DNA of 41,398 nucleotides, from the NCBI RefSeq assembly GCF_000242875.2, contig NZ_AEXL02000168.1:1-41398 (forward strand), given 5' to 3'. Source of the DNA: Candidatus Nitrosopumilus salarius BD31 (GTDB lineage Archaea > Thermoproteota > Nitrososphaeria > Nitrososphaerales > Nitrosopumilaceae). This document shows, one piece after another, positions 4,117 to 41,398 of the stretch. The translations under genes were made by a program, and so were the position numbers. Position 1 is the first letter of the stretch. The number at the start of each line of letters is the position of its first letter. Under the pieces are notes generated by a model, which saw only the letters and a list, made by a program, of their open reading frames with translations, was not told where the DNA came from and searched no databases.

Positions 4117-4224
4117 ATCTTAATTCAAAAATTCAATTTACCAAATATAATCTATAGAATATTCTAAAAATTCAAATTTTCAACACAGATCTGTCTATTT
4201 AAAAGAACTAAAAGAAATATAGGC

Positions 4225-25862: not shown

Positions 25863-27314
25863 ATGAAAAAATTAATTCTTAAATCATTAAAATCTAAAAT
25901 TCAGGGAGACATTTTTTCCAGTAAGGAGTTCAAGGAATTTTACTCAGTGGATGCTAGTTCATATAAAATAATTCCAAGCATAGTAGTAATTCCAAAGCAC
26001 GAAAAAGATGTGATCAACGTCATAAGAATTGCAAAAAAATTCAAAACCCCAGTCACGGCACGTGGTGCAGGAACTGGACTTGTTGGTAGTGCATTAAACC
26101 GAGGGATCATATTAGATATGCAAAAATTTGACCAAATCAGAATCACGAAAAAATATGCCATAATAGGTTCCGGCACAATCAAAGGAAAAATAGATAAAGA
26201 ACTTGAAAGGGCAAAAAAATTCTTCCCGCCGAATCCATCAGTTGGTTCTTATTGTTCAGTAGGAGGCATGTTAGGAAATAATTCAAGTGGAAGTAGAAGT
26301 TTGAAGTACGGAAGTGTCATAGACAATGTTGAAGAAATAACATTTGTTGATGGAAATGCAAGAAAAATAACCCTACCAAAAAATAAAAAAATTTCAAATG
26401 AAATTATAAAATTTTCAAAATTAGTAGAATCTAAAAAATTTCCTAACACATCAAAAAATTCTTCTGGGTATAGAATTGACAAAGTAAAGTCAATTGAAGA
26501 TACACATAAAATAATAATTGGATCTGAAGGAACATTGGGAGTAATATTATCAGCAAAAATAAAAATCAAAGAGATGCCAAAAAAAAGAATCCTATACATA
26601 ATAGGATACAAATCAATTTATGTTGCAGTAAGGGAGTGCATGAAAATAAATCAGACAGCCCCAACAGCAATAGAATTTATGGATGAATTAACTCTTCATC
26701 AGATCAAATTCAAATTTGTTAAAAATACAAAATGTGTACTTTATGTAGAGTATGACGAAGATATTACAAAAAAGGAAAAAGAGTTACAATCAGTCATTAC
26801 GGGGAGAATTATTAAAAAATTAAAAAAAGAACAAGAAATAGAACAATGGTGGAGATATAGAGATTTATCATTATACTATAGTTTAAGAACAATCAAAAAA
26901 GAAAAAAGAGTTCCACACATAATCGAAGATGCCGCAGTTCCTTTGAAGAACCTTCCAAAAGTATTTTCATTACTTAACGAAATAAATAAAAAATACAGGA
27001 CAAAATGTATTGTTTATGGACATGCTGGTAATGGCAATGTACATGTGAGACTAATTGCAGATAGAATAAAGACCAAAATTATCAAAAATATTGCAAAAGA
27101 ATATTTTAATGAGATCATTAAACTTCAGGGAACAATTACTGCAGAACACGGAGATGGCCTTGCACGCTCAGAATTTGTCAAAAAACAATATGGAACACAA
27201 AATTACAGAATATTCAAAGAAATTAAAAAACTGTTTGATCCAACCAATATTCTCAATCCAGGCAAAATCATCTCAAAAAAAAGTACCATCATAAGTAATC
27301 TAGAAAAGTTTTAG
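25863..27314 (+). CDS. FAD-linked oxidase, GlcD/D-lactate dehydrogenase type
   Basis: A 483-residue PCMH-type flavoprotein that oxidises a 2-hydroxy acid such as glycolate or D-lactate. FAD-binding motifs are intact: TARGAGTGLVGSAL, PPNPSVGSYCSVGGMLGNNS and IIGSEGTLGVI. The C-terminal cap carries YGHAGNGNVHVRL and AEHGDGLARS, and FDPTNILNPGK ends the family domain. No iron-sulfur subunit is adjacent, so the electron acceptor is not evident. It lies 9 nt downstream of the HD-domain gene. Confidence 0.82.
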   Translation: MKKLILKSLKSKIQGDIFSSKEFKEFYSVDASSYKIIPSIVVIPKHEKDVINVIRIAKKFKTPVTARGAGTGLVGSALNRGIILDMQKFDQIRITKKYAIIGSGTIKGKIDKELERAKKFFPPNPSVGSYCSVGGMLGNNSSGSRSLKYGSVIDNVEEITFVDGNARKITLPKNKKISNEIIKFSKLVESKKFPNTSKNSSGYRIDKVKSIEDTHKIIIGSEGTLGVILSAKIKIKEMPKKRILYIIGYKSIYVAVRECMKINQTAPTAIEFMDELTLHQIKFKFVKNTKCVLYVEYDEDITKKEKELQSVITGRIIKKLKKEQEIEQWWRYRDLSLYYSLRTIKKEKRVPHIIEDAAVPLKNLPKVFSLLNEINKKYRTKCIVYGHAGNGNVHVRLIADRIKTKIIKNIAKEYFNEIIKLQGTITAEHGDGLARSEFVKKQYGTQNYRIFKEIKKLFDPTNILNPGKIISKKSTIISNLEKF

Positions 27315-27381
27315 AATGTACAGTCAAAAAATCAAAACATATTCAGAAACGCTTTATTAACTAAAAAATATCCAAAAAATC

Positions 27382-27813
27382 GTGTTATACAAGGGCATTG
27401 GGTTATTTACAATTCTAATAATTATTGCGTCTGGGTTTACCCCAGCATTTGCATTGACAGAATTAGAAAGAGCATCGATTGTAGATCCAAGATTAGTGAA
27501 TGCATTTGGATCTCCCATCGGAAATTTGATTAATGTTGATCAACAAGTGCAGATCTCAGCAGATGTAATAAACAATCAAGAAAAATCCCAGATTTTTGCA
27601 TATCTTGTTCAAATAAAAAACGAGAATGACATAGTAGTTTATTTTGGATGGTTTCTTGGAGAATTAAATCCACATCAAAAATTAAATCCGTCATTATCTT
27701 GGAGTCCAAAAGAACCGGGAGAGTTTACTGCAGAGATTTTTCTATGGGAGGGATTTCCAGTTAATCACAAAGCATTAACTGAATATACAACGTTAAAAAT
27801 TAACGTGAGTTAA
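27382..27813 (+). CDS. Secreted beta-sandwich-like protein
   Basis: A 143-residue protein with a signal peptide (GLFTILIIIASGFTPAFA, cleavage near residue 25) and a beta-rich domain resembling an archaeal Ig-like or CARDB-type surface module (VDQQVQISADVINNQ, FAYLVQIKNENDIVVYFGW, GEFTAEIFLWEGF). The GTG start at 27382 has a TTTATTA box centred about 26 nt upstream, supporting a leaderless start. It is probably on the cell surface. Confidence 0.7.
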   Translation: MLYKGIGLFTILIIIASGFTPAFALTELERASIVDPRLVNAFGSPIGNLINVDQQVQISADVINNQEKSQIFAYLVQIKNENDIVVYFGWFLGELNPHQKLNPSLSWSPKEPGEFTAEIFLWEGFPVNHKALTEYTTLKINVS

Positions 27814-27994
27814 TTCTGACAAAAAACTATAGGCATTATATAAGAAATTCGAATAATTCATTCCTAAATTATCAAAAAAAATAACCTGTACGAAAAATAT
27901 TGGATGTGATATGATAATTAAGATCTGAGATTTGTCTGTTAGTGAAAAAAATTCAACAAGTTCTCGCTAATAGAACCTTGAGCCTATTACAAGT

Positions 27995-28138
27995 ATGACA
28001 ATAGGATATTGTGTAAAGTGCCGAGATAAACGTGAAATCGAAGGCTCTAAACCATACACCATGAAAAATGGTAAACCTGCAATCAAAGGTACATGCCCAA
28101 CTTGTAGCACAGCCATTTTCAGAATTGGTAGAGGATAA
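27995..28138 (+). CDS. DUF5679-like small zinc-ribbon protein (47 aa)
   Basis: ATG at 27995 opens MTIGYCVKCRDKREIEG, followed by CPTC and TAIFRIGRG. The two CxxC pairs about 25 residues apart and the -KNGKPAIKGTCP- linker match the DUF5679 family of archaeal zinc ribbons, frequent in Nitrosopumilus. The stop codon lies within the 26-bp palindrome that separates it from the convergent gene. Confidence 0.8.
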   Translation: MTIGYCVKCRDKREIEGSKPYTMKNGKPAIKGTCPTCSTAIFRIGRG

Positions 28139-28161
28139 ATTTCACACTAGTGTGAAATTTA
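28136..28161. terminator. Perfect 26-bp palindrome between convergent genes
   Basis: The sequence is symmetric around CTAG (core TTTCACACTAGTGTGAAA). It includes the TAA stop of the DUF5679 gene on one strand and the TAA stop of 28159-28410 on the other, so one hairpin can serve both messages. It is most likely a bidirectional terminator or 3' stabilising hairpin. Confidence 0.6.
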
Positions 28162-28410
28162 ATACTGCCATTCATCAGTGAGGCCATTCCAGAGCGAACG
28201 CATTGGGGATGGATCTTTTTCTATTTCTTCCATAATTCTATTTCTTAACACAAAAGAAAAATTCTCTAATGCGTCAACACCGCCATCAGAATATAATTCA
28301 CAGCCAATGTCAGCAATTCTTTTGTGTTTTTCAGAAATTTTTTCAGATTCAGGATTTTGAAGACAGAAAGTCATCAAATCAATTAGTTCTTCTTCTAGCA
28401 TGAAATCCAT
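28159..28410 (-). CDS. Small acidic hypothetical protein (83 aa)
   Basis: A helical, acidic protein starting MDFMLEEELIDLMTF and ending LTDEWQY, with two Cys. No recognised domain. It sits between the chromosomal DUF5679 gene and the integrase and may be the last chromosomal gene or the first gene of the element; the sequence alone does not decide. Its start is 43 bp from the divergent integrase start. Confidence 0.55.
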   Translation of the reverse strand: MDFMLEEELIDLMTFCLQNPESEKISEKHKRIADIGCELYSDGGVDALENFSFVLRNRIMEEIEKDPSPMRSLWNGLTDEWQY

Positions 28411-28452
28411 CGATAAGTTCTACTTTATAGGCATACTAAAGTATTTCAAAGC

Positions 28453-29586
28453 ATGACATCATTCTTGGTGGAAAAAAAGAATCAAAAATCTTTTGCAGAA
28501 AAGACAGAAAAATTATCCGTCAAAACAAGACAAAACATAGAGGCTTCTAAAAACTCCTTGGATAGATTCTGTCAGGATTACTATGACGGTAGAACCTTGG
28601 AGGATATTTTCAGAGAATTGCAGACACTCAAAGGGGACGAACAAACTCAAGCAGTAAGGGAAGTCCTACAGTCATGGATTGACTGGCAATACAATGAAGG
28701 ATCCTTGACCAATTCAGTAAAGCAGTATGTCTCTAAAATTAAACGGGTATTTCTCCACAATAACATCAAAATCCACATAGAAGACTTTGATGAGCCTTTG
28801 GAATACAAACCTGTAACCAAAGAAGAACTCCATGAGTTAACCTTGGAGGAGATTCAAAAAATATTCTCAGTGGCATTGCCAAGGAGGACAGGATTCTATT
28901 TGGCTTTAATTTCAACAGGTGCTAGACCTGGAGAGTTACTCCAAGTCAGAAAGAAAGACATTGACACCACTCAGAAGAGAATCAAGATTAGGATAGAAGC
29001 TGAGAACACAAAGACTAGATCAGGACGTTCTGTTTGGCTGACAAAAGAAGCTGGAAGATTACTGATGATTCGGCTAAAGGACTTGAAAGAAAATGATCTA
29101 GTTTGGGCAACTAACGAGAATCCAGCATTTGCAGAAAAGGCAGAAGCTCAGATGTTTAACAAGTACACTGAGGAGGCAGGATTTACTCAAAAGTACAAGT
29201 CTAATGGTTTTAGAATGATTACGCTTTATTCATTCAGATCATACTTCTTTGGACGTGCATCTGACGTTCATAGAGAGGGATATGCACACAGGATGACAGG
29301 TCATGGGGGATATTTACCTCAATATGATAGAATGAGTGATACTAAGAAATTAGAATGGTTTTTGGAAGTAGAACCCGAATTAACCATCAATGATGAAGAA
29401 AGACAAAAGATAACCATCGAAAATCTAGAGAAAGAAAAAACAGAAATTAACAAAATCAATAAGTCAAACAAAAATCTTCAATCACAAGTTGATGAATTAA
29501 AAGAAGCAGTAAACAGATTGATTCAAAAAGACACCATACGAGAAAAAACCATCTCAGTAAATGAAGGACTGGGGGTTCAAACCTAA
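28453..29586 (+). CDS. Tyrosine recombinase / integrase
   Basis: A 377-residue site-specific recombinase. Residues 1-130 form the helical core-binding domain. Catalytic residues visible: R158 (STGARPGELL), R262 (TLYSFRSYFF), H284 (TGHGG) and nucleophile Y291 (PQYDRM). The His usually three residues before the second Arg is Tyr (Y259), a variation seen in some archaeal integrases. The C-terminal 70 residues are a coiled coil. The ATG at 28453 has CTTTATA about 27 nt upstream. It is the first gene of the presumed element and probably drives its integration. Confidence 0.9.
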   Translation: MTSFLVEKKNQKSFAEKTEKLSVKTRQNIEASKNSLDRFCQDYYDGRTLEDIFRELQTLKGDEQTQAVREVLQSWIDWQYNEGSLTNSVKQYVSKIKRVFLHNNIKIHIEDFDEPLEYKPVTKEELHELTLEEIQKIFSVALPRRTGFYLALISTGARPGELLQVRKKDIDTTQKRIKIRIEAENTKTRSGRSVWLTKEAGRLLMIRLKDLKENDLVWATNENPAFAEKAEAQMFNKYTEEAGFTQKYKSNGFRMITLYSFRSYFFGRASDVHREGYAHRMTGHGGYLPQYDRMSDTKKLEWFLEVEPELTINDEERQKITIENLEKEKTEINKINKSNKNLQSQVDELKEAVNRLIQKDTIREKTISVNEGLGVQT

Positions 29587-29589
29587 CTT

Positions 29590-29718
29590 GTGTTTGAGTT
29601 GGATACATCTTTTGAGCAATCTAGATTAGATCAGATGCACAATCAAAGGGTTATGAATGAACTGGAAATATGCAGATATCTAAAATACATCTACTTGGGG
29701 GTTCATGAAGAGGCATGA
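29590..29718 (+). CDS. Possible small protein (42 aa) after the integrase
   Basis: From the GTG at 29590 the frame gives FELDTSFEQSRLDQMHNQ and continues to a TGA at 29716. It is in the same frame as the integrase, one codon after its TAA, so it could be a microprotein translated by re-initiation or a decayed C-terminal extension. No family. In sequence this AT-rich, a frame of this length can arise by chance. Confidence 0.25.
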   Translation: MFELDTSFEQSRLDQMHNQRVMNELEICRYLKYIYLGVHEEA

Positions 29719-29791
29719 ATGTAAAACATATCAAAAGTATGAAAATACAATTTTCTTAATATTTTAATCTAAGTCGATTAACACTATTTCA

Positions 29792-32700
29792 TTGAGAAAA
29801 CTTCGAGTTTTTATAAGTTCAAAAACACAAGAACTTCATGATGCTAGAATGTCAATTAAAGAGTGCCTCAAACCATTTAATTTTGAGGTATTTATTTTTG
29901 AAGACGATGCAGGTGCCAGAACAGAATCTTCTGAAGAAGTTTACAGAACAGAAGTAAGTGAATGCGATATTTACATCGGGCTTTTTCGAGAAGACCATAG
30001 TGAACCTACTGAAGAAGAATACGACATAGCAAATAAAAATAAAAAAGAAATTCTTTGTTATATTTCAGAATATAATATCAACCAACGAGATAAAAAACTT
30101 GATCAATTTATTGGGAAAATAAGAGAAAATAACACCTATGATACTTTTGATAATGTAAAAGAATTGGAGCAAAAAATACAAAGCGATATGGCAAAACTCC
30201 TTGCAAAAAAATTCATAGAAGCTCAAAAAATTCCCAATAAAACTTCTGTTTTTGGCGACAAAGAAACAATTCAGGAATATTTACAAAAAATTTGCACCAC
30301 TAATCCATCTTCATTAGCATCCATCAATCAAATTGCTAGTGAAGTAATGTTAGTTTGGAATGCAATGGGTTATTCTATAACAAATTGTCAAATTGACGGG
30401 TCAACAGTAAATTTTTCTGGGAAATATGATGACTGGTCTGGAAGTAGAAAAGTTTTCATCAGATGTGTTGATGGATCTGCGGATTCAAGTGATGTTGTTG
30501 TTGTGAATCGTTTTTTAAACATGAATCCAAAATTTGATGAAGGATTTATTTTTACTCATCAACGTGTATCAGAATCAGCTCTAGAAAAAGCAAAAGAATT
30601 TGAAAATATTACAATTCAATCCCAATTCAATTTTTATAGAAATATACTAAATCCAGAATCATATTTTCAGTGGTTAAAAAAATATTATGACAGTAGTGAA
30701 ATCTCAAAATTTTATGTTGATCTGAATTGTTTCAAAGAAGTACAATCTAATGGTCCAAACTTTGTCAAAGAAGATTTTGGAAATCTAGAAAAATATGTTG
30801 ATGGATGGTTAAAAGATAAAACAAAAAAACATCTTTCTATTCTGGGGGAATTTGGTTCAGGTAAAACATGGTTTTCTAAAAAATATGCAAAAATTTGTTT
30901 AGACAGATACTTAGAAGATCCAGAATCAAACAGGATTCCAATTTTGATCTCATTACGAGATTATGCTAAATCATACAGCATTAAACAAATGATTACGGAT
31001 TTGTTATTGAATGAATATGGTTTCAAAATAAGAGGGGCATTTGATGTTTTCGAAGAACTAAACAATCAAGGTAAATTTTTACTAATTTTTGATGGGTTTG
31101 ATGAAATGGCTCAAAAAGTAGATTATGATACAGTTGTGGATAATTTTTGGGAATTAGCTAAAGTTGCAACTCCAAATAGCAAGGTGTTGTTAACATGTCG
31201 TACCACTTATTTCAGATATGAAATGGAGTCACAGAAAGTACTTAGTGGTAAGGAACAACTTTCAACATCATTACCACTTAATCAACCGGGTTTTGAAATA
31301 ATTCATCTCAAAGAATTTGATGAGTCTCAAGTTATTGAAGTGATGTCAAAAAGAATTGGAAATAAAGAACAAGCAATAGAATATTGGGAAAAATTGAAAC
31401 CAATTTATGACATTCCAAGTATAGCACACAAACCAGTTTTGATACCAATGTTAATTGAAGTTATGTCAGACATAATAGAAAATAAATCAGTAGATCCATC
31501 GACAATATATTACACATATGTCAACAGATGGTTGAAAAAAGCACATGAAGAAAAACGTACTTTTCTAAAAACTAAATCACAATCTCTATTTTTCGTCACG
31601 AGTTTAGCTTGGTATATGATTAAGTCTCAAAATTTAAGAATTCATTGGAAAAAAATGCCAGAATTTATCGACCAACATTTCAATGTGGATTCTAGTGAAT
31701 TGGACTACTATGCTGCAGATCTCAGAACAAACTCATTTTTAAAAAGAGATGAAGACGGAGTTTTTGAATTCACTCACAAATCCATGACTGAATTTTTTAC
31801 TGCATATAAGTTTGCAATAGAATTAGGTGCAGCAAAAAAACAATTTCTTACAGATATTTCAAATGAAGACAGAGTACAAAAACCTCTACCAGATCTTATA
31901 GAAAGTTTTGGAGCATTTATTCTAACTCCAGAAATTTCATTATTTCTTAGAGATATGGTATCTGGAAGTCATGTATTAAAGGAATTATTTGAAAGAAGTA
32001 GAAAAAAAGGAGACACGGTAGGATTTCTCAACAGTAATCTAATTTCATTATTAGTTCAGATGGGTGAATCTATTGACTCTCAAAATATGTTTGGAATCAA
32101 TTTACCTAATGCAGAATTAGAAAACTGTAAACTTACAAATTGTATTCTAGATGGATCTAATTTGCAACACTGTCTATTAGACGGTTCTAATCTACATAAA
32201 TCAAAACTAAATAACTGTAATTTGGCAGGCGCAAGCTTCCAACATTCAAACTTTGTAGGTGTTGAAGGAGATAATGTTAATATCACAAATTGTAAAGGAC
32301 GACGTTCTAATTTTAAAAATGCAATTCTAACCGGAGCTAATTTTTCCAATTCTCAATTTCAAAAGTCCAAATTTATTTATTCTATTTTAGACCAGATTGC
32401 AGCTAGAAATAGTGATTTTACTGGAACTGATTTTACTGAATCCAATTTTGAAAACTCAACAATAGATAATTGTATTTTTGATGATTGTATTTTAACTGGG
32501 ACAACTTTTAAAAACGCAAATTTAACAAATTGTTCATTTTTTGATGCAGTTTTGACAAAAATTGAACTGACTAATGTAAATTTAAAAAAATCTAAATTTG
32601 AAAACCATGAATTTGTCAGAGTTGGTTTTGGAGCAGCAAAAATGAACAGTACAATAATGATTAATTGTGTATTTGATCATTGTAGATATAATAATGCAAA

Positions 32701-32986
32701 TTTATACAAATCAAATTTCCGTGATTCAAAATTTATCAAATGTAAATTTGAACAAACAGATATGAACTCATCAAACTTTGTTAATGCTACTTTGTCTGAT
32801 GTTATTTTTGAAGGGTGTAATTTAACAAATTCTGATTTTACAGGAATTAAATGTGAAAAAATCAGCGTTGATAAGAAAACAACAACAAAGGGAATCATCA
32901 TGTCTGAAAATACATTTAGAAATTTACCTCAAAACTTTAAAAATGCTGTAATTAGAGATAACCCTATATTTTTCGGAATTAATTAA
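29792..32986 (+). CDS. DUF4062-NACHT-pentapeptide protein, NLR-like
   Basis: A 1064-residue STAND-type NTPase. Order: DUF4062 (1-95, RVFISSKTQELHDAR, SECDIYIGLF), a linker with a possible degenerate nuclease-like fold (about 160-300), NACHT (Walker A GEFGSGKT at 352-359; Walker B LLIFDGFDE ending at 434-438; then LLTCRTTYF), a helical winged-helix part, and about 50 pentapeptide units (767-1035). DUF4062 is a common N-terminal effector or adaptor of bacterial and archaeal NACHT/STAND proteins, and the C-terminal repeat solenoid takes the sensor position held by LRR or TPR in NLRs. Anti-virus defence is inference. The TTG at 29792 has TTTTAAT 27 nt upstream. Confidence 0.85.
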   Translation: MRKLRVFISSKTQELHDARMSIKECLKPFNFEVFIFEDDAGARTESSEEVYRTEVSECDIYIGLFREDHSEPTEEEYDIANKNKKEILCYISEYNINQRDKKLDQFIGKIRENNTYDTFDNVKELEQKIQSDMAKLLAKKFIEAQKIPNKTSVFGDKETIQEYLQKICTTNPSSLASINQIASEVMLVWNAMGYSITNCQIDGSTVNFSGKYDDWSGSRKVFIRCVDGSADSSDVVVVNRFLNMNPKFDEGFIFTHQRVSESALEKAKEFENITIQSQFNFYRNILNPESYFQWLKKYYDSSEISKFYVDLNCFKEVQSNGPNFVKEDFGNLEKYVDGWLKDKTKKHLSILGEFGSGKTWFSKKYAKICLDRYLEDPESNRIPILISLRDYAKSYSIKQMITDLLLNEYGFKIRGAFDVFEELNNQGKFLLIFDGFDEMAQKVDYDTVVDNFWELAKVATPNSKVLLTCRTTYFRYEMESQKVLSGKEQLSTSLPLNQPGFEIIHLKEFDESQVIEVMSKRIGNKEQAIEYWEKLKPIYDIPSIAHKPVLIPMLIEVMSDIIENKSVDPSTIYYTYVNRWLKKAHEEKRTFLKTKSQSLFFVTSLAWYMIKSQNLRIHWKKMPEFIDQHFNVDSSELDYYAADLRTNSFLKRDEDGVFEFTHKSMTEFFTAYKFAIELGAAKKQFLTDISNEDRVQKPLPDLIESFGAFILTPEISLFLRDMVSGSHVLKELFERSRKKGDTVGFLNSNLISLLVQMGESIDSQNMFGINLPNAELENCKLTNCILDGSNLQHCLLDGSNLHKSKLNNCNLAGASFQHSNFVGVEGDNVNITNCKGRRSNFKNAILTGANFSNSQFQKSKFIYSILDQIAARNSDFTGTDFTESNFENSTIDNCIFDDCILTGTTFKNANLTNCSFFDAVLTKIELTNVNLKKSKFENHEFVRVGFGAAKMNSTIMINCVFDHCRYNNANLYKSNFRDSKFIKCKFEQTDMNSSNFVNATLSDVIFEGCNLTNSDFTGIKCEKISVDKKTTTKGIIMSENTFRNLPQNFKNAVIRDNPIFFGIN

Positions 32987-32998
32987 ATTTTCTATAAT

Positions 32999-33235
32999 TT
33001 AGACATAATCAGATTTTTCTTGTTTAAGTTTAAAGATGAAATCAGATGTAGGTGTATTTGAAAACAAGGATTCTATCTTGAATTTCAGCACCTTTCCACC
33101 ATGTTTTTCACGTTTAAAGCAATAGGCAGTGATTTTTCCATCATTGTAATTGGTTTCTGATCTATCTACTTGTAACCTACAGCCACATTTAACACATTTA
33201 GGTTTCTGAAGAATTATGCTGAATTTCTTACCCAT
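32999..33235 (-). CDS. Small zinc-ribbon-like protein
   Basis: A 78-residue protein with CVKCGCRL near the N-terminus and YCFKREKHGG in the middle, so three or four Cys plus a His could bind one metal. Lys-rich. It is on the strand opposite the NACHT gene and 31 bp downstream of the wHTH gene 33267-35069 on the same strand. Function unknown. Confidence 0.55.
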   Translation of the reverse strand: MGKKFSIILQKPKCVKCGCRLQVDRSETNYNDGKITAYCFKREKHGGKVLKFKIESLFSNTPTSDFIFKLKQEKSDYV

Positions 33236-33266
33236 GTTATTGATATTACACTTTTATTGAAATACC

Positions 33267-35069
33267 CTAACTTGGCAAAACATCAAGCATTCCTTGTAGG
33301 TAATCTAGAAATTTTTTTCGTTCGGATTGAATTTTTCGTTTATTTATTTTTAGATTTTTTAATTCGAAAAGATTTTTTTCAAATTCATTATTAACATATG
33401 CTAAAGTGTCCACCCAATCAAAATACCATTTTCTTAAGGGTCTATCTTTAGTTAAAACATACTTCCATGCAACACCAGAAATCTTAGTTTTAATTAAAAG
33501 ATAAAAATGGAATTGAATTATGTTAGAGACACTGTCCAAAATTTCAGGATCATATTTTAGATAATGTGAGGCATTAATTTTATTTGAAATGACATGCTCA
33601 TTTCTTAAATCGCCTATTTCAGATAATTCAAGAAGAGGCACATATAATTTAGAAACGATGGTAAATTCTTGTTCAGAATATTCATTTTTAGAATTTGTTC
33701 TCAGATTAATTTTCTTAAGATCATGTATTTCTTTAGCTTGTGAAAGCATATTATCTGCAACCGCATGTAATTTTGCATTTGGATTAGTTGGAATAAATTT
33801 ACGAGTAGATAGAGAGAATGAATTTTCAATATTTTTCAAAAATTTATTTTCAGAAATCCATTCACGTAAACTCATTTGCCCATCATCAAACATATTCAAA
33901 AATTTTATTTCAAAATAACGGTATAATAAAGACTGAGTTTTAAATGCTACCCAAACAGGTTGATCAAAATATTTGATGTCAAATTGTTCATCAGCAAAAT
34001 AAAAAGTTGCAAGTTGGACGAATATATTTTTCAGATCTATGCCTGTTTTTTCAAATTTTTTCCATCTTTTATTATTAAAAATCATCGGAAATAATTCATG
34101 GTATTGATTTTTAATTTCGTCTAAAGGAAAATCACCCATTTTATTATAAATTAAATAAAACAAACCAGATTGTGTTAGCTGATATTTATGTAAAAAGGTT
34201 GGAACACGAACAAATTTCTCACCATTTTTTACATAAAAATCTTTATTTGAAAAACTTTTGCTCAATAACAAACCTGCGGAAACCATACTTTCTACCAATA
34301 CTTGAAAATTATTAAATACAAATTCTCCTTCCCGTCTTGATTCAGAATTATTTTTAAAAATATCTTTAACTGTAGACATTCTATTTTTTGCCAAATAATC
34401 AAGTATCTCGATTTCAATTATTGAGATTTTATTTTTTTTAAAAAATATAGTAAATGGAATGGATGAATATTGTCTATCATAATGTAATTTTTCTTGTTCA
34501 TAAAAATGAATAATTGTTTTATAGTTTAATCCAAATTTACGACGTTTGTATTTTGTAATGTATTGGTTATCATATCTACCATAGATAACTTGATTTTTTT
34601 TTGGTGTATTTCTTGTTCTAATTACTAGGTTTAACTCATTTAAGGCTAAGGTGAATAGAATTTTCCAAAATTGGATTGCATCGGGATTAAAATTTTCTAA
34701 ATAACGAAGAACACCTTTTGTAGTTATAGCATAAAATTTTGTTGTTTTACCTTGTTCGTTATCAATTATTTGAACAACTTCAGTTTTATCATAACCTTTT
34801 TTGTGTAAAATTCTAGTGATAGGATAGGAACTGGTTGGTTTTATTCCTGTACCACAACATCGTTTACATAATTCAGTAGCAATGTATTTTTCTCCTTTGC
34901 AGATATTACATTTCTTCTTTAGATAAATTTTGGAAGCTATTTCCTTAGGGTTTCTAGGCTTGCCATCAATTAACAGATTAATTATTCTGTCTTCTAGATC
35001 AAGATTATCATTTTTATCTTCATTATTTTTAGGCATTAATACCACATTTTTTTTCCTATATTGTGTCAT
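33267..35069 (-). CDS. Large winged-helix protein with DnaJ-like zinc finger
   Basis: A 600-residue basic protein. Residues 26-120 read as a winged helix (IINLLIDGKPRNPKEIASKIY) into which a zinc finger is inserted: C54-x2-C57-x-G and C68-x2-C71-C-G, the CxxCxGxG spacing of the DnaJ zinc domain. A second winged helix follows (about 215-300, EIEILDYLAKNRMSTVKDI). The rest is helical with many aromatics and no catalytic motif. It is likely a DNA-binding regulator or replication protein of the element. The frame starts at ATG 35069 with an alternative at 35036. It is divergent from the ribbon-helix-helix gene, 33 bp away. Confidence 0.65.
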   Translation of the reverse strand: MTQYRKKNVVLMPKNNEDKNDNLDLEDRIINLLIDGKPRNPKEIASKIYLKKKCNICKGEKYIATELCKRCCGTGIKPTSSYPITRILHKKGYDKTEVVQIIDNEQGKTTKFYAITTKGVLRYLENFNPDAIQFWKILFTLALNELNLVIRTRNTPKKNQVIYGRYDNQYITKYKRRKFGLNYKTIIHFYEQEKLHYDRQYSSIPFTIFFKKNKISIIEIEILDYLAKNRMSTVKDIFKNNSESRREGEFVFNNFQVLVESMVSAGLLLSKSFSNKDFYVKNGEKFVRVPTFLHKYQLTQSGLFYLIYNKMGDFPLDEIKNQYHELFPMIFNNKRWKKFEKTGIDLKNIFVQLATFYFADEQFDIKYFDQPVWVAFKTQSLLYRYFEIKFLNMFDDGQMSLREWISENKFLKNIENSFSLSTRKFIPTNPNAKLHAVADNMLSQAKEIHDLKKINLRTNSKNEYSEQEFTIVSKLYVPLLELSEIGDLRNEHVISNKINASHYLKYDPEILDSVSNIIQFHFYLLIKTKISGVAWKYVLTKDRPLRKWYFDWVDTLAYVNNEFEKNLFELKNLKINKRKIQSERKKFLDYLQGMLDVLPS

Positions 35070-35102
35070 GTTTGTTATATTTTATAAGTTTGTTAACTCT
35101 TC
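35070..35102. promoter_or_regulatory. 33-bp divergent promoter region
   Basis: The gap between two start codons in opposite directions holds TTATATTTTATAAG, a near-symmetric TATA element that could serve both genes. With only 33 bp, initiation in one direction should interfere with the other, giving a simple switch if the ribbon-helix-helix protein binds here. Confidence 0.45.
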
Positions 35103-35231
35103 ATGAAAAAAATAATTGGACTTTCTCTAGACAGGGAGATTTTAGAAATAATAGATAATTCGCGTGGTTTAATTTCTAGATCTGCATATGTACAAAAAAT
35201 TCTTAATGAAAGATTAAGGAGGGGAACCTGA
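35103..35231 (+). CDS. Ribbon-helix-helix (CopG-like) DNA-binding protein, 42 aa
   Basis: From the ATG at 35103: MKKIIGLSLDREILEIIDNS then RGLISRSAYVQKILNERL. This is a typical ribbon-helix-helix repressor: a short beta strand (KIIGLSLD), helix A and a Ser/Arg turn leading to helix B. Such proteins control copy number and early genes of archaeal plasmids and viruses. It is first in a chain of overlapping genes through 37359. A GGAGG lies inside its 3' end and serves the next gene. Confidence 0.8.
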   Translation: MKKIIGLSLDREILEIIDNSRGLISRSAYVQKILNERLRRGT

Positions 35232-35578
35232 TACACAAATCAGGCCCCACTTGCTCCAGTTCAAAGAGTCAAGATAGTATTTCTAGCCAAGACCATATTA
35301 AAAAATGCAATTATTCATGTAAGAAAGACAAAACTCCCATAAGGTTACGATGTGCTGGTTGTGAAATAAACAAAACTAATGGTAAACATTCAAAATCTTT
35401 TAAAAACCTACAAGAGATTTGGTATCATACATGGCAATGCAGGAATTTTGATCATATCAATTACCCAACTAAAGAATTTCAAATCATAATTTTAGAGAAT
35501 ATTTGTTCATCTTTAAAAAACAAACTTGAATTCAAGTACATAGAACAAGCAAAAAATTTAGGAATGATTGTAAAATGA
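35228..35578 (+). CDS. Cys-rich hypothetical protein with probable CTG start
   Basis: A 116-residue frame with no ATG, GTG or TTG near its 5' end. I propose CTG at 35228 because AAGGAGGGG (35216-35224) stands just ahead at Shine-Dalgarno distance and the frame closes upstream at a TGA (35207-35209). The product has CNYSCKKDK, RCAGCEINK and HTWQC, so one or two zinc sites are likely. It overlaps the upstream stop (4 nt) and the next ATG (4 nt), which supports coupled translation. No family recognised. Confidence 0.5.
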   Translation: MIHKSGPTCSSSKSQDSISSQDHIKKCNYSCKKDKTPIRLRCAGCEINKTNGKHSKSFKNLQEIWYHTWQCRNFDHINYPTKEFQIIILENICSSLKNKLEFKYIEQAKNLGMIVK

Positions 35579-35748
35579 TAGAAGAGGAGTTCCTAGTCGG
35601 TAGATGTTGTAAAAGAAAATCAGATCATCTAGTTTACTTTAATGGAAATCCATCAAGAAATTATGCAGTCTATCTTTGCAATAATCATCTAAACACACCA
35701 CCATATGACAAAAACATTTTGAAAGTTATCAAATTGGAGGATATCTAA
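35575..35748 (+). CDS. Small Cys/His protein (57 aa)
   Basis: ATG at 35575 overlaps the previous stop as ATGA. The product, MIEEEFLVGRCCKRKSDHL and then YLCNNH, has a CC...H and a C-x2-H arrangement that could form a zinc knuckle. Its stop overlaps the next ATG (TAATG at 35746-35750). Function unknown; part of the coupled operon. Confidence 0.55.
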   Translation: MIEEEFLVGRCCKRKSDHLVYFNGNPSRNYAVYLCNNHLNTPPYDKNILKVIKLEDI

Positions 35749-36026
35749 TGACAGAATCATTTGATTGCAAATACTGTTTTGAGCCGATTTATGAAAAAGA
35801 TCTTAATGGTAAAAGAGAATTTTTTGACAACCCAGAATGTACTAAAAAACACAAACATAGCAACAGAGCATACCAGTTTCATTCTGACTTAAAACAACTA
35901 AAACAGATTCAAAATTCAAATCTTACACGATTTCATGAACATGATAATGCCATTCTACAGATACACTATGAAATAGAACAACTACAGAGGAAACTGAAAA
36001 AATATGACCAAAAGTTTGGATTATAA
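35748..36026 (+). CDS. Zinc-finger and coiled-coil small protein
   Basis: A 92-residue protein. The N-terminus has FDCKYCFEPI and PECTKKHKH, a treble-clef-like Cys/His cluster; the second half is a helix with heptads (LQRKLKKYDQKFG). GGAGG at 35736-35740 is 7 nt before the ATG, a good Shine-Dalgarno site. It overlaps the ATPase gene by 23 nt, so both are probably made together and the product may be an accessory to the helicase. Confidence 0.6.
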   Translation: MTESFDCKYCFEPIYEKDLNGKREFFDNPECTKKHKHSNRAYQFHSDLKQLKQIQNSNLTRFHEHDNAILQIHYEIEQLQRKLKKYDQKFGL

Positions 36027-37359
36027 AATAACTGACACTGACATACTGTCAAAAATTGTTGCGGGATATCATTCCAAAATAGTTGGGGAAGAAAACAACA
36101 TCAAGCTATTGTGGCTAGCATGTATTTCAAAAGATCTGCCAAAAAGAAACAGACTATCTGCCATAATTACCAGTCAATCAAGTGCAGGAAAATCAAATCT
36201 GGTGAATTCTGTACTAATGCCATTTCATGAGGACGTCATAGATTTTACTGATTACACACCTGCATTTCTAAGCAGGCAGGAGGTAATAATGAATGGAAAA
36301 ATACTCAAAATGGAGCAGATTGAGCGTACAAATGACAAAAAACAAGTAAGCATCTCTAATTTGAAATTTTTACTCACTGAGGGAGTTCTAAAGATAGGTT
36401 TGGTGGATAAGAACGAGAAAGGAAAAAATGTGCCAAAAACACTTCAAGTAAATGGAATACCAGTATTCATATCCACATCAACAAATTACAACATTGATCC
36501 TGAGACCCTTAATCGCACATTATTGATGCAGGTAGACGAATCAGAGTTTCAAACAAAAAAAGTAATTTCACACATCATAAATTCTTATGAGCATTTATCA
36601 GTAAACAACAATTGGAACAATGATCTAAAAGAATTAGAAAAGTTAGCAAGATTATTCAAAGAACATGCAAAACAAATTAGAGATATCGTAGTTCCTTTTG
36701 GCAGAAAATTAGAATCAAAAATTCCTGTTTCAGATGTAACAATAAGGCGAGATTTACCAAAAATTCTAAACTTGACTTGTGTTGTAGCATTTACCCATAT
36801 AGCAAACAGAACGTGCATACGAAACAATAATGGAGAACAGTTCATTGATGATCAATTTGGAAATACAGAAAAATATTATACATACACAATCATTGCAGAA
36901 CCATCTGATTTTCAAGAAGCAATAAAAATTGCAGGTACTACCATTACTCAGACCATTAACAAAATTAACCAATCATCAATTGAAATGTATGAGAAATTTA
37001 TGGATGTTTATAGACAAAAAATATCAGAGAATTCCATTTCAGGTCAAAATACTACCTTAGATAATGATAACATCATTGATGTCGGAATAACAATTAAAGA
37101 ATTGACAAAAATCACATATCTAAGTCAGAATCGTACAAGGGAATTAATGAGTCAATTATTGACAAATGGATTTGTTTCCCGTGAAAAAACAAAATCACGA
37201 GAATTTGAATACTATCCAACAGGTAAGAAATTTGAGAATATCAAATTTGACGAATTGGATTACACAAAAGAAGAATTAGAGAAATGGGTGAAAAAGGAAA
37301 TTAGTGAAAATAAAGAATTAGAAATTGTATATCCTAAAAATAGTGTTTTCGTGTCATGA
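36004..37359 (+). CDS. AAA+ ATPase, replicative helicase-like
   Basis: A 451-residue P-loop ATPase. Walker A SQSSAGKS is at 57-64; the following DFTDYTPAFLSRQEVIMNGKI and NLKFLLTEGVLKIGL blocks and GIPVFISTSTNYNIDPETLNR resemble the MCM-like AAA+ proteins of mobile-element primase-helicase systems, in which a serine-rich P-loop (SSAGKS) is typical. A canonical Walker B is less clear (KILKMEQIER is a candidate). The C-terminal part ends in a winged helix (GITIKELTKITYLSQNRTRELMSQL). It is likely the DNA-unwinding or initiator protein of the element. It lies at the end of the coupled operon starting at 35103. Confidence 0.65.
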   Translation: MTKSLDYKITDTDILSKIVAGYHSKIVGEENNIKLLWLACISKDLPKRNRLSAIITSQSSAGKSNLVNSVLMPFHEDVIDFTDYTPAFLSRQEVIMNGKILKMEQIERTNDKKQVSISNLKFLLTEGVLKIGLVDKNEKGKNVPKTLQVNGIPVFISTSTNYNIDPETLNRTLLMQVDESEFQTKKVISHIINSYEHLSVNNNWNNDLKELEKLARLFKEHAKQIRDIVVPFGRKLESKIPVSDVTIRRDLPKILNLTCVVAFTHIANRTCIRNNNGEQFIDDQFGNTEKYYTYTIIAEPSDFQEAIKIAGTTITQTINKINQSSIEMYEKFMDVYRQKISENSISGQNTTLDNDNIIDVGITIKELTKITYLSQNRTRELMSQLLTNGFVSREKTKSREFEYYPTGKKFENIKFDELDYTKEELEKWVKKEISENKELEIVYPKNSVFVS

Positions 37360-37406
37360 AACAGACTCAAAAACAGCATTTTTCACCTCAAAAAGCCCAT
37401 TTTTGG

Positions 37407-37425
37407 CACGATTTCATTAATCGTG
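37407..37425 (+). terminator. Hairpin after the helicase-like gene
   Basis: CACGATT and AATCGTG form a perfect 7-bp stem around TCATT, followed by TTTAATTC. It lies 48 nt past the stop at 37359 and is a likely 3' end of the coupled operon. Confidence 0.45.
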
Positions 37426-37471
37426 TTTAATTCAAACTTATTTTTGTTAGTGACAGAAAATTCTGGGAAAA

Positions 37472-37494
37472 ATTTCGTCACGATGACACGAAAT
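37472..37494. promoter_or_regulatory. Nested inverted repeats upstream of the membrane protein gene
   Basis: ATTTCGT (37472-37478) pairs with ACGAAAT (37488-37494), and inside them GTCA (37477-37480) pairs with TGAC (37484-37487) around CGA. The nested dyads lie about 75-100 nt ahead of the membrane protein start, a position fitting an operator. Confidence 0.4.
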
Positions 37495-37570
37495 AAAGAT
37501 CAAAAAAAGTATGAAGTACTAAATATACAACACACCTAACCCTCAAATATCTAAAACATGTGTTTTGAAC

Positions 37571-37975
37571 ATGAGTTTTATTGCAACAGGAGCCGCATTA
37601 GCCGGAACCATAATTGGTATTGTTCTAGTTATCATTGTTGCAATCATGATTATTGTAGCGGTTGTTAATTGGTATGTTCAAAATCAAGAATATGTACAAA
37701 GAAATGTGAAAAATGTAAAGGAAGTAGTTCCAGACATAGTAGATAGCATAACAAAACTGTGTGGTTTAGAAGATCATATTATGAGTCAATTAGATCAAGC
37801 ATTTGCAAATACTTTAGTAGATCCTAAAGCACGTGAAATTGCAAACAGAATCATACAAGGTGAAAAATTATCGGATTGTGATTGGTACGAATTCATCAAT
37901 CATCTAAATGAATGGGAAAAAAGAAAATTACGGGTATATGATTTTATTTGTGATTTAAGTTCATGCCTCAAATAA
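37571..37975 (+). CDS. Small single-span membrane protein of the element
   Basis: A 134-residue protein with one long hydrophobic segment (residues about 4-33, ATGAALAGTIIGIVLVIIVA and onward), a helical charged domain and two C-terminal Cys (FICDLSSCLK). It could be a virion membrane protein, an anchor for the HerA-like ATPase or a surface-exclusion factor; none is proved. ATG at 37571; a TTG two codons earlier is possible. Confidence 0.55.
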   Translation: MSFIATGAALAGTIIGIVLVIIVAIMIIVAVVNWYVQNQEYVQRNVKNVKEVVPDIVDSITKLCGLEDHIMSQLDQAFANTLVDPKAREIANRIIQGEKLSDCDWYEFINHLNEWEKRKLRVYDFICDLSSCLK

Positions 37976-38012
37976 TCATTGGCTTTTTCAATTAGAATGT
38001 AACAAATCATTT

Positions 38013-38348
38013 GTGATTCCTTCATTGCCATATTATCCAACAATGCCCGATTTGGCAAATTGTTGTTTACATTACCCTAAAATAAAAAAACAAAGAGATC
38101 CTCCTGAAGACAATGATAGTTTAGAAAACCATCATCTTCAATGTGTGATATTTGGACATAATTGGAAATTCCAAGAAGAAAGATGGCGAATTGATGCAGA
38201 TAGGGAAACGGATGATTTAGAAAATTTCAGGTTAATCGGGATTATTAGACGATGTAAGATGTGTGGAGGAATTGCATGGGAATATTTTCCACATGACAGA
38301 TTCAAGCATGATGACTATTCAGACGAATGGTACGATGAAATTGAGTGA
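38013..38348 (+). CDS. Zinc-ribbon-like protein upstream of the packaging-type ATPase
   Basis: A 111-residue protein. LANCCLHYPK, HHLQCVIFGHNWKF and RRCKMCGGIAWEY supply Cys/His pairs for one or two metal sites; acidic ending. The GTG at 38013 has a CTTTTTCA box 27 nt upstream; an ATG at 38043 is an alternative. It overlaps the ATPase gene by 14 nt, so the two are coupled. Confidence 0.55.
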   Translation: MIPSLPYYPTMPDLANCCLHYPKIKKQRDPPEDNDSLENHHLQCVIFGHNWKFQEERWRIDADRETDDLENFRLIGIIRRCKMCGGIAWEYFPHDRFKHDDYSDEWYDEIE

Positions 38349-40038
38349 TTTCACACCTACCTTCAGGTCAAAAAAGCCTAAAAAATTCATGGATGAAAAA
38401 TGGCTCAGAACAGACGAACCTCAAGTAATTTTGTTTCAGGGGATGAGAGGTGGCGGTAAAGGAGTTGCAGTTGACAAGACTGCAGAAGAACTGTACAAAG
38501 AAGGAATTAACATATGGCACATATGGGGAGCTCGAAGTTTTGAGAATTTGTATTGGGCAGTAAACAAAGATTGCAAGGAAAAATATGACAAAATCAAACT
38601 AATTTTACAAGGATTTGAACAAAAGATCTCTTTGAAAAAATGGGCGTTTCATAACCAAATATTTGAAAAAGAGTTTCAATATTATTTTGAAATAATAAAA
38701 AATAACAAGTTGGTATCAGTTGAGAGAAATTCTATCAGGTTAGAAAAACTTGGATTGGAATTTCTTAAAGGCGAAGTTTTACATTGCAATTGCCACAAAT
38801 CATATCCCATAGTTTGGATTGTTCCTGATTACATTGAAGTCAATCAAGAGTCACTAGATAAATTTAACGACCAATATTGGAAGAATATTTCTGAATATAG
38901 AAACTATCTGCTAGAAATTACATCAAAAGAAAAACAACTACTTTTACAAGGAGTGTTGAAAAAACCAAAGCAGTTTGCCCCAGATGAAAAAATAATCGTA
39001 AAACGAATTACCCCACCAACCAGTTCATCTAGAAAAGAAACTTTTCAAAAACAGTTCACAGACATTGTTGTGCAAGCAAGAAAAGAAAAAAGAATCGTCG
39101 TGATGAATCCTGCAATCTTTGAATATGCAAATGACAAGTTTGACACCCTAGCTGAAATAATCAGAATGATTCCATATCTGATGAACAAGTCTGGCTTGTT
39201 TTCACCATTGTCTGAATTAGATGTTGGAAAAGCAAAAAAGTATTGGACTAAACAACAAAAGTCTTGGCATAAAGTTGCAATTGTAATTAATGAGTTAAGA
39301 TCAGTTGCACCCTCATCAAGATTATCCGGAGAACGTGAATCAAGTAAATCAAAAAAAGCAATCTATGATTTTATTCCCGAAGCCCGACATATGAAAACCT
39401 GGTTTTTAGGCGACTATCAAAATCCCGAGGATCTTTATGCAGGAGTGCGATACCAATCAAATATTGTTGTGATAAAACGTGCCTCAAGAAGTATTTTGGG
39501 TTCTGATTGGGCATGGCTTTTTGAGAAAATTGAACGCGACAGAATGGGATTGTTACGCAAAGCAGGAAAGAGAATTGAAAGACCTGAAGATATGTGGAGA
39601 TATGAGAAATATCCTCAGATTAGAAAATACCTTGATGATAGGCGTCCAAAGATAGATGAGATGCCTGACAACATTGGATATCTTACTTTCATCAACGGCG
39701 AAGTAGCACGATGGCGGTTTGACATGCCATCATTTCACCATAAAACATCTCTAGAAGATTTTCAGAAAGATACTGGAATTACTTGGAAGGTTAATTCCAA
39801 AAAAACCCCAAAAGAAACTTCTACAACTAATTCATCTCAAAAAAAGAATAACAAGGAATTGATCCTAAACAAAATACATCAAATGCACATAACAGATGGA
39901 AAGTCTTTCAAACAAATTAAAGATGACCTTGTCCAAATGCAAAAAGATGGAATTATTCCAAATATGGATTTTGAAGATAAAGAACCAATCTACTTTAACA
40001 ATTTATGGAATAGATGGAAAAAGAAGAATTTATCATGA
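38335..40038 (+). CDS. HerA/FtsK-like ATPase, probable packaging or transfer motor
   Basis: A 567-residue P-loop ATPase. Walker A is GMRGGGKG at 36-43, with Gly where Ser or Thr is usual. KVAIVINELRSVAPSSR near the middle fits a Walker B strand, and MKTWFLGDYQNPEDL followed by YQSNIVVIKRA matches the sensor strands of the HerA/FtsK/VirD4 group. A Cys/His insert (HCNCHKSYP) lies at about 160. The C-terminal 60 residues are a separate basic helical domain (QIKDDLVQMQKDGI). In mobile elements such ATPases pump DNA into virions or recipient cells. The ATG at 38335 is chosen because the longer reading from 38263 overlaps the upstream gene by 86 nt. Confidence 0.65.
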   Translation: MKLSDFTPTFRSKKPKKFMDEKWLRTDEPQVILFQGMRGGGKGVAVDKTAEELYKEGINIWHIWGARSFENLYWAVNKDCKEKYDKIKLILQGFEQKISLKKWAFHNQIFEKEFQYYFEIIKNNKLVSVERNSIRLEKLGLEFLKGEVLHCNCHKSYPIVWIVPDYIEVNQESLDKFNDQYWKNISEYRNYLLEITSKEKQLLLQGVLKKPKQFAPDEKIIVKRITPPTSSSRKETFQKQFTDIVVQARKEKRIVVMNPAIFEYANDKFDTLAEIIRMIPYLMNKSGLFSPLSELDVGKAKKYWTKQQKSWHKVAIVINELRSVAPSSRLSGERESSKSKKAIYDFIPEARHMKTWFLGDYQNPEDLYAGVRYQSNIVVIKRASRSILGSDWAWLFEKIERDRMGLLRKAGKRIERPEDMWRYEKYPQIRKYLDDRRPKIDEMPDNIGYLTFINGEVARWRFDMPSFHHKTSLEDFQKDTGITWKVNSKKTPKETSTTNSSQKKNNKELILNKIHQMHITDGKSFKQIKDDLVQMQKDGIIPNMDFEDKEPIYFNNLWNRWKKKNLS

Positions 40039-40041
40039 TTT

Positions 40042-40179
40042 TTGATTAAAAATGAGTTGTTTTGATTAGTTTTTGATTAAAAAACTACAAAAAAACTTTT
40101 TCATTTACGCACAAAAATTGTAATCAATTAATCATTAATCGAATTCTCTATAGTATATGGTGGTTGATTAATTGATTAG
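40042..40179. repeat. TTGATTA repeat block, candidate origin
   Basis: TTGATTA(A/G) occurs on the plus strand at 40042, 40062, 40073, 40164 and 40172 (the last two in tandem), with the inverted form TAATCAA at 40121 and more ATTAATC-type sequence around it. The block fills the 233-bp AT-rich gap between the ATPase and the metallopeptidase, where no gene is present. Short spaced repeats in an AT-rich gap resemble iterons, but regulator binding sites are equally possible. Confidence 0.45.
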
Positions 40180-40258
40180 TGAATTACCTGTTTAGTTTTT
40201 TGAAATTTGGGACTAAAAGAAACTAAGCCATGATAATAACCAATTACGCGTCATGTCA

Positions 40259-40268
40259 CACACGTGTG
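40259..40268. terminator. CACACGTGTG palindrome after the metallopeptidase gene
   Basis: A 10-bp perfect palindrome that lies 4 bp beyond the stop of the metallopeptidase gene. It resembles in composition the 26-bp palindrome at 28136-28161, and may act as a 3' hairpin or protein site. Confidence 0.3.
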
Positions 40269-40271
40269 CAA

Positions 40272-40838
40272 TTACAAAATAGACTTTTCATTTTCTTCAA
40301 GCCATTTTATTTTAGTTTCATAATCTGGCACAAATTTGTAAAGCAAATTCCAGTATCTTTGAGAATGATTTGGAATTTTCTTGTGACATAACTCGTGTAT
40401 AATTACATAATCCAAAATTTCAGTTGGGGCTTTAATTAAATTCAAATTTACATTGATGGAACCATCATCTGAAAGACTACCCCATCTTTCACGTACATCT
40501 TTCACTCTAATCTTTTTTACGGGGATTTTTGTTATCTTTGAGCCTAATTTTACACGTTTTTCTATTATTGATTGTGCCTTTGTTTTAATCCATTTTTGAT
40601 ACAACTCGTTTATCTTTTTTTGACTGAAAGATTTTGTTTTAATTAAAAACACACCTTTAGAAAAAGATACCGACTCTTCGTCAGATCTAATAATTTTAAA
40701 TGGATATTTTATTCCCTTGTATAACAAATTAGTTTTATCTTGAAGTTTTTTTGTTTGTGTCAATTTGTATTTTTTTTGATAAATCCACTTTGATTTAGAT
40801 TCTACTAGTTTCTGTATGTCTTCATCTGATTGTGACAT
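40272..40838 (-). CDS. YgjP/DUF45-type metallopeptidase
   Basis: A 188-residue zinc metallopeptidase-fold protein. DYVIIHELCHKKIPNHSQRYW carries HExxH and the downstream His of the family, and VRERWGSLSDDGSINVNLNL is the typical block before it. Enzyme role unknown; family members often accompany restriction-modification genes, absent here. The first ATG is at 40838, but convincing family sequence (KFGKSKIPYKIIRSK, TSQIIVDESSVQVFAP) continues in frame to about 40949 with no ATG, GTG or TTG. It therefore uses an unusual start (ATT at 40949 is possible) or begins at TTG 40977 in another frame, with a frameshift at A5 (40950-40954). TATA-like CTAAAAT on the minus strand (centre 41001) fits the latter. 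Confidence 0.75.
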   Translation of the reverse strand: MSQSDEDIQKLVESKSKWIYQKKYKLTQTKKLQDKTNLLYKGIKYPFKIIRSDEESVSFSKGVFLIKTKSFSQKKINELYQKWIKTKAQSIIEKRVKLGSKITKIPVKKIRVKDVRERWGSLSDDGSINVNLNLIKAPTEILDYVIIHELCHKKIPNHSQRYWNLLYKFVPDYETKIKWLEENEKSIL

Positions 40839-40962
40839 TGGAGCGAAAACTTGAACGCTTGATTCATCTACAATTATCTGAGATGTTTTTCTCCTTTGTT
40901 TGCTTCTAATTATTTTGTATGGGATTTTTGATTTCCCAAATTTTAAAATAAAAAGGGCCCTC

Positions 40963-40994
40963 GAGGTGACTTGTCAAGTTAGTTCAAGTCCCTC
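40963..40994. other. Stem-loop at the 5' end of the metallopeptidase gene
   Basis: GAGG-T-GACTTG (40963-40973) pairs with CAAGTC-CCTC (40985-40994), ten base pairs with one bulge and an 11-nt loop. It overlaps the presumed start region of the metallopeptidase and the edge of the element. It may be an attachment-site dyad, an operator or a leader hairpin. Confidence 0.35.
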
Positions 40995-41060
40995 ATTATT
41001 TTAGGCAATCACTAAAAACTGATTCCTAAATGCTTAAGTTCATATAAAATAAGAAATGTT

Positions 41061-41398
41061 GTGGTGTGGAAATCATATTTTTTGATTATAGGTTTTTCTC
41101 TACTCATCTTGTATAGTTCTACATCCACAATATTTGCGGAATTTGATAATGCTAACACATATGTGGAAATTTTTCCACAGACCATAGTTTCTAATGAAAA
41201 AGCAAATGTAAGAATATCGACAACTGTGGATTCAGAAGTTGAAAAGCTATTTGAGATAACTATATTGACTCCTGATGGTAAGTCATACAAATCTAATTTG
41301 GTACTAAATGGAGATTCATCTAAATTAGTAACTGGCATAACTCAGTTTCCTGATGATTTTAATAATTCAGATGAATCACAATCAGACTATAATACTAC
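41061..41398 (+). CDS. Secreted surface protein, 5' part
   Basis: Incomplete at the window edge; 112 residues visible. The GTG at 41061 (or the next codon, also GTG) opens a basic start and a signal peptide (SYFLIIGFSLLILYSSTST, cleavage near IFA-EFD), then a beta-rich domain (ANTYVEIFPQ, KANVRISTTVD, KLFEITILTPDGKSY) typical of archaeal exported Ig-like proteins. AAATGCTTAAGT at 41028-41039 gives a TATA box about 25 nt upstream. This gene marks return to chromosomal sequence. Confidence 0.7.
   Translation, partial: MVWKSYFLIIGFSLLILYSSTSTIFAEFDNANTYVEIFPQTIVSNEKANVRISTTVDSEVEKLFEITILTPDGKSYKSNLVLNGDSSKLVTGITQFPDDFNNSDESQSDYNT

Follow-up and report, generated by a model that had tools for sequence, protein, structure and literature searches.

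A repeat array with inverted arms beside a putative DNA-pump gene in archaeal mobile elements, a candidate site of recognition and loading

Streptomyces TraB reads 8-bp repeats (TRS) with a winged helix, which in this protein is C-terminal. It is described as an FtsK-like hexamer that recognises 8-bp repeats at a locus of the plasmid that encodes it and moves this plasmid as double-stranded DNA (PMC4170104, PMC12857230). The FtsK-gamma translocase subdomain is reported to read the 8-bp KOPS sequences that direct FtsK (PMC2680272). A different arrangement is given for pRN1, where a variable stem-loop origin lies downstream of orf904, a winged-helix replication gene, and has conserved flanks (PMC4234260). 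HerA-like ATPases (arCOG00280) are said to be common in archaeal 'dark matter' islands and are viewed there as possible DNA-pumping ATPases (PMC4158269). The portion of that account drawn on here does not mention a cis site; the ATPase described below has one adjoining it. Thaumarchaeal ICEs are reported to carry VirD4/VirB4 with no relaxase detected, and double-stranded DNA transfer has been proposed for the archaeal machinery; the sections of that paper cited here describe no transfer locus (PMC6563490).

How does a mobile element of a marine ammonia oxidiser compare? The window, i.e. the whole stretch of DNA analysed, comprises 41,398 nucleotides of Candidatus Nitrosopumilus salarius BD31 (contig NZ_AEXL02000168.1). 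Its genome is labelled G000, and other genomes are labelled in the same way (G091, G148, G176, G034, etc.). The element begins near an integrase gene, which is followed by genes for a NACHT-pentapeptide protein, for proteins of 600, 451 and 136 aa and for a 591-aa ATPase. At the fourth base past the ATPase stop codon starts a block of the repeat word TTGATTA. The features are as follows.

28453–29586, forward strand: tyrosine integrase (Pfam PF00589, E 1.5e-9), 96% identical to the G034 integrase
36004–37359, forward strand: 451-aa putative replication ATPase/helicase, a rival reader of the site (PHROG 12057, of unknown function, E 2.7e-5); its helicase nature is a guess
37565–37975, forward strand: 136-aa protein with one strongly hydrophobic segment (maximum 19-residue hydropathy 3.2–3.7)
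38263–40038, forward strand: 591-aa P-loop ATPase with a predicted HerA/TrwB-like fold (P-loop GMRGGGKG; start codon uncertain)
38569–38781, forward strand: inserted winged helix, ATPase residues 103–173, candidate specificity domain (VIA matches; low identity to relatives)
39832–40035, forward strand: C-terminal three-helix domain, ATPase residues 524–591 (AF2 model), second candidate DNA-binding part
40042–40079, forward strand: three direct copies of the repeat word, exact at 40042, 40062 and 40073
40121–40142, reverse strand: left inverted arm with reverse units at 40121, 40129 and 40136, two of them with one mismatch
40148–40157: centre CTATAGTATA; CTATA stands between the arms in all six sites found
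40164–40178, forward strand: right arm TTGATTAATTGATTA, two exact units 8 bp apart (40164 and 40172)
40188–40270: conserved flank, alignable in the window, G091, G034 and G176
40256–40268: second short element TCACACACGTGTG, within the conserved flank

The TTGATTA block is real and far above chance. Exact copies are found on the forward strand at 40042, 40062, 40073, 40164 and 40172 and on the reverse strand at 40121, six in 137 bp, which confirms the five direct copies and at least one inverted copy in 138 bp that the initial annotation had reported. Over the full window the word is at chance level (27 observed vs 25.3 expected), and no 139-bp stretch outside the block has more than two copies. 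A genome-wide count and a comparison with other intergenic regions had been proposed in that annotation. G000 (1.57 Mb, 171 contigs) has 749 copies vs 453 of the pattern read backwards, and the block is far denser than this rate. The Poisson probability of at least six copies in 139 bp, at the genome-wide rate, is about 1e-10. Among 20,000 simulated first-order Markov sequences of local composition none gave six, and the maximum was three. The surrounding DNA is AT-rich and gene-free, as had been claimed: positions 40036–40271 are 73% AT, and the sole listed ORF of at least 50 aa between the ATPase stop at 40038 and the YgjP stop at 40272 is a 53-aa frame of which only the start, at 40230, lies in this interval. 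Repeated short words and an AT-rich stretch, an iteron-type feature, are present. The neighbouring genes had been described as replication-type; the adjoining gene encodes a DNA-pump-like ATPase and is not a recognised replication gene.

The internal order of the block, three direct copies and then inverted arms around CTATAGTATA, is new relative to the initial annotation. Positions 40121–40134 and 40165–40178 form a perfect 14-bp inverted repeat. Units within the arms recur every 8 bp; among lags of 5–10, lag 8 was the best in all four site-bearing loci tested, and it was not the best in G148. Direct copies are also found past the ATPase stop in G091, exact at +5 and +26 and with one mismatch at +37 and +41. 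The arms have stem-loop potential in the four site sequences folded (z -1.8 to -3.8). A sequence-specific reading of the units is favoured because direct copies also lie outside the stem, an arrangement compatible with an origin too. The second element, TCACACACGTGTG, is about 135 bp past the start of the palindrome. Its pattern, TGACACRYGTRTG, occurs with at most two mismatches 129–149 bp past the palindrome start in six of seven loci tested (the exception is G148), a count made on the same sequences from which the pattern was derived; an equally good match is present in 73 of 2000 random 330-bp segments.

Is this layout found elsewhere? A protein search with the ATPase in 250 genomes of the family gave nine carriers, the window genome included (G000, G091, G148, G176, G034, G198, G010, G235 and G135), and a profile search in 400 genomes of the class gave 11 with ATPase relatives, some of them fragments. 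The loci were scanned blind to sequence for 16-base inverted arms with lag-8 repetition in each arm, scored out of 32, with a gap of 20–36 (18–36 for helicase loci and for G135). The layout is observed 3' of the ATPase gene in six of the nine loci, with scores of 28 (window), 26 (G091), 25 (G176), 28 (G034), 28 (G198) and 30 (G135, where the arms are perfect). In each it is the best-scoring position of its locus, at +83, +84, +85, +84, +129 and +128, respectively, from the ATPase stop. In six of nine loci, non-coding DNA that adjoins the motor gene contains repeats with an 8-bp period and a word particular to the element. No background tile of 330 bases reached 25 (0/1232), three of the 1232 reached 24, and an untiled scan of helicase loci gave a single score of 25, in G012. 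With such frequencies, a host intergenic palindrome at 4124–4183, built around CTATAG with lag-8 repetition and scoring 24, is probably a chance match.

Scanning gave no site in G148, G010 and G235, which have the ATPase. G148, which belongs to the same genus as the window genome, scored 19 and has a weak candidate around CATATTATAG that scores 21 at other lags. The site is also absent from G289, a profile-level relative with a readable flank, which makes six of ten loci overall; in two further profile-level relatives, G285 and G169, the contig ends too early for the site to be read. As all six sites were found starting from the ATPase, the company of site and ATPase is partly by construction, and the converse test, a site without the ATPase, was confined to helicase loci. 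No ATPase relative was found in plasmid records, and an earlier description of the site was not found among the matches listed in open PMC papers.

The layout is constant and the word is not. The repeat word is TTGATTA in the window and G091, GAGGAAT-like in G176, GCGAATT-like in G034, TTTGTGG in G198 and TTGTGA in G135; there are five words in six loci, those of G198 and G135 being similar. The sample of loci is small, and the window and G091 are close relatives, so their common word may be plain descent. In G135 the ATPase ends at the contig start, and its 3' flank was read across the contig-end junction. The two ends of this contig have 127 identical bases in common, most simply explained by a circle of ~56 kb, though they may also be the terminal repeat of a linear molecule. 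Other products of this apparently circular contig (C6) are a 1243-aa Fn3 protein, that of a GP88-like gene and numerous small membrane proteins; among the 10 proteins scanned there was no named PHROG match.

The ATPase itself has no match above cut-off in Pfam, PHROG or NCBIfam, with no FtsK family match in Pfam or NCBIfam, no prim-pol/SF3 replication family match and no convincing relative among PDB sequences. Its fold is predicted from an AlphaFold2 (AF2) model with a mean pLDDT of 70.9. Compared by VIA, most of residues ~38–514 resembles chains named HerA (Z 7.3–8.3), the coupling protein TrwB (Z 7.0) and 8wiv, an unnamed 'bacterial protein' (Z 8.8), and residues ~102–174 resemble winged-helix proteins (Sso10a-2, Z 8.8; 1y0u, Z 8.4); by the tool's own warning, Z values of about 7–9 are at a common level. 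FtsK is absent among the fold matches listed. The best Foldseek hit has E 0.079. Since Z values of 7–8 are common and no Foldseek hit is under E 0.001, a HerA/TrwB-like fold with a winged-helix insert is probable, short of certain. In the model of the G034 ATPase (pLDDT 63.3) the motor and winged-helix resemblances are weaker, with Z up to 5.6. The C-terminal domain follows a linker, has AF2 helices at 524–544, 549–561 and 575–590, and is aligned at the C-terminus of seven members.

Does the insert vary as the word does? Insert identity to the window ATPase is 48/71 in G091, 16/71 in G148, 19/71 in G176, 14/67 in G034 and 21/71 in G135, vs 137/167, 95/166, 86/167, 80/166 and 49/162, respectively, over residues 174–340. 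G198, whose sequence begins inside the ATPase, is not part of this comparison. The insert is the most diverged part of the core in four of five comparisons (71-residue windows), G091 included despite its unchanged word; between the window and G135, 170 of 267 core windows are as diverged as the insert. In G091, 14 of 17 residues of the putative recognition helix are kept. G010 and G235 have neither insert nor site, G289 also lacks the insert (by eye, on part of the sequence), and the G235 ATPase frame is short, without the C-terminal part. On the other hand, the G148 ATPase, 51.7% identical to that of the window, has the insert, yet the scan gave no site.

What might the block do? Our preferred reading, held with evenly divided confidence, is that the ATPase whose gene lies immediately upstream recognises the block as its cognate site and loads there, as a pump that would move the double-stranded DNA of the element. 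The 8-bp-spaced units would be read by the winged helix that each pump subunit carries within its motor domain, with possible assistance from the C-terminal domain, and the subunits would gather on the two inverted arms, with the CTATA centre between them. From there the assembled pump would translocate the element as double-stranded DNA, most probably as a step in its transfer between cells, in which the small 136-aa membrane protein perhaps takes part. Homologues of this protein lie close to the ATPase in G091 and G176, and from its sequence it is a possible membrane partner of the pump. The recurrence of the layout, while the word changes with the predicted DNA-reading domain, suggests a matched motor-and-address system. 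A winged helix and units that vary jointly from one element to the next would restrict each pump to the DNA of its own element. The initial annotation had offered a binding array for a winged-helix or RHH protein. A winged-helix reader fits, but the foremost candidate is the domain within the neighbouring ATPase, and not a separate regulator.

Binding and pumping by the ATPase, and transfer, are what we infer, and the likeness to Streptomyces TraB and its clt locus is that a motor whose reader domain varies is encoded next to an array of element-specific 8-bp units. There are differences. The present system is archaeal, HerA/TrwB-like by model and unmatched to FtsK by sequence; its winged helix interrupts the motor domain; and its units are arranged as inverted arms on either side of a CTATA centre. 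By these features the pair of ATPase and site is outside the Streptomyces TraB family. Unlike KOPS, which are spread along chromosome arms, the units are clustered at one site. Neither a relaxase nor VirB4 was recognised among the proteins scanned, the latter unlike the thaumarchaeal ICEs that carry VirB4.

The strongest rival is a replication origin comparable to that of pRN1. The excised element would replicate from an origin of the iteron or stem-loop type, whose AT-rich centre would be opened by an element initiator. We consider this rather unlikely. Inverted iterons do flank an AT-rich centre, the folded sequences have the stem-loop potential noted above, and a variable stem-loop lies 3' of a winged-helix ATPase gene and beside a conserved flank, an arrangement also reported for pRN plasmids (PMC4234260). 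In G176 and G148 the far side of the ATPase 3' region is occupied by a D5-like helicase gene. The gene next to the site, however, looks like a HerA-type pump and not like the primase/SF3-helicase gene of pRN1, and direct units are also outside the stem. Homologues of the helicases without the ATPase were found at 29 places, of which 20 were fetched; these had no ATPase match and no clear site (best scan scores 20–25), and with seven of the 20 contigs under 6 kb a site could lie outside the fetched sequence. The putative helicases of the window (451 aa) and G091 (629 aa) have no similarity although the word is identical, and the elements have helicases of different types (MCM in G034, D5-like in G148 and G176, unassigned in G091), whereas the position of the site past the ATPase stop is constant. 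Helicases are therefore unlikely readers. The origin suggested in the initial annotation is thus possible but less well supported. Other candidates are proteins common to the window and G091, of 78 aa (86% identical), 57 aa (43%), 136 aa (50%) and 111 aa (64%), and any of these might also read the site; the 78-aa protein has no match in G148, G176 or G034.

Could the array be a centromere-like partition site, where the winged-helix ATPase or another element protein binds and segregates the circular form? Two winged-helix centromere-binding proteins are among the fold matches, AspA for the window model and TubR for the G034 model, and the G135 site is on an apparently circular contig. Winged helices are a generic fold, however, the scanned proteins of the window include no recognisable partition NTPase, and the neighbouring ATPase, by its model, resembles a translocase. 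Partition appears improbable. A pac site, at which the block would mark DNA for packaging by the ATPase as the motor of a virus or satellite, is quite improbable. Packaging ATPases of DJR viruses are reported to belong to the FtsK-HerA superfamily (PMC6563490), and the G135 element encodes its Fn3 protein and other large proteins. Nevertheless, a capsid match was not found among the proteins scanned, a subset of those of each element, and no ATPase relative was confirmed in IMG/VR (pattern-based scans) or in phage records (tblastn).

A very improbable role is that of an operator, promoter or terminator, with a repressor on the repeats that controls transcription at the CTATA centre. The centre between the inverted units is TATA-like, and a forward ORF starts ~190–250 bp beyond the site in G176, G198 and G135. 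In the window, G091 and G034, however, the next main ORF is convergent, so there is no shared downstream gene. Arm-type binding sites of an integrase or excisionase are scarcely credible: the block does lie where the recognised genes of the element end on the 3' side, but the word does not follow the tyrosine integrase, as arm sites should, since the 96% identical integrases of the window and G034 go with different words, and the same word in the window and G091 with different integrases.

Other features of the window deserve mention. The gene at 29792–32986 encodes a 1064-aa protein with DUF4062, NACHT and pentapeptide repeats, which from these domains is probably a defence gene; it has no strong PADLOC match. 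Directly past the site, on the reverse strand (40272–40838), is a YgjP-like metallopeptidase gene. As a YgjP-like gene also follows the G235 ATPase (L018:1583–2023), it may be element cargo and not a host gene. A palindrome, TTTCACACTAGTGTGAAA, at 28140–28157 is just past a small gene, presumably DUF5679, and is a possible attachment region; a homologue of this gene also precedes the near-identical G034 integrase. Sought as attachment repeats, direct repeats between 27200–38000 and 40000–41398 do not exceed 13 bp, and in G034 none is longer than 14 bp. A wider comparison gave a single 16-bp direct match, AGTTCATATAAAATAA, at 25956–25971 and 41037–41052. ARAGORN detected no tRNA genes in the window that might be an integration target. 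The element ends may lie beyond the contig end. A dispersed hairpin-forming repeat, GAGGTGACTTG ... CAAGTCCCTC, is at 40941–41007, and short copies of it (81–95% identity) are present in six other genomes of the genus, with three copies in G090.

To return to the recognition and loading site, what would it mean for these archaea? With more doubt than conviction, it can be proposed that AOA elements have a one-motor form of DNA dispersal, in which a fast-changing winged-helix reader and a matching palindromic address evolve as a pair and which, if so, is not recognisably related by sequence to Streptomyces TraB. If true, AOA mobile elements would have a specificity code that can be read and a defined site at which transfer is initiated. 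By what means archaeal mobile elements with no recognisable relaxase select and move their DNA is an open question, and a cis locus together with a candidate reader makes it testable. A reader domain paired with its words could allow the specificity of an element to be predicted from sequence, and may offer a handle on gene exchange among the abundant marine ammonia oxidisers.
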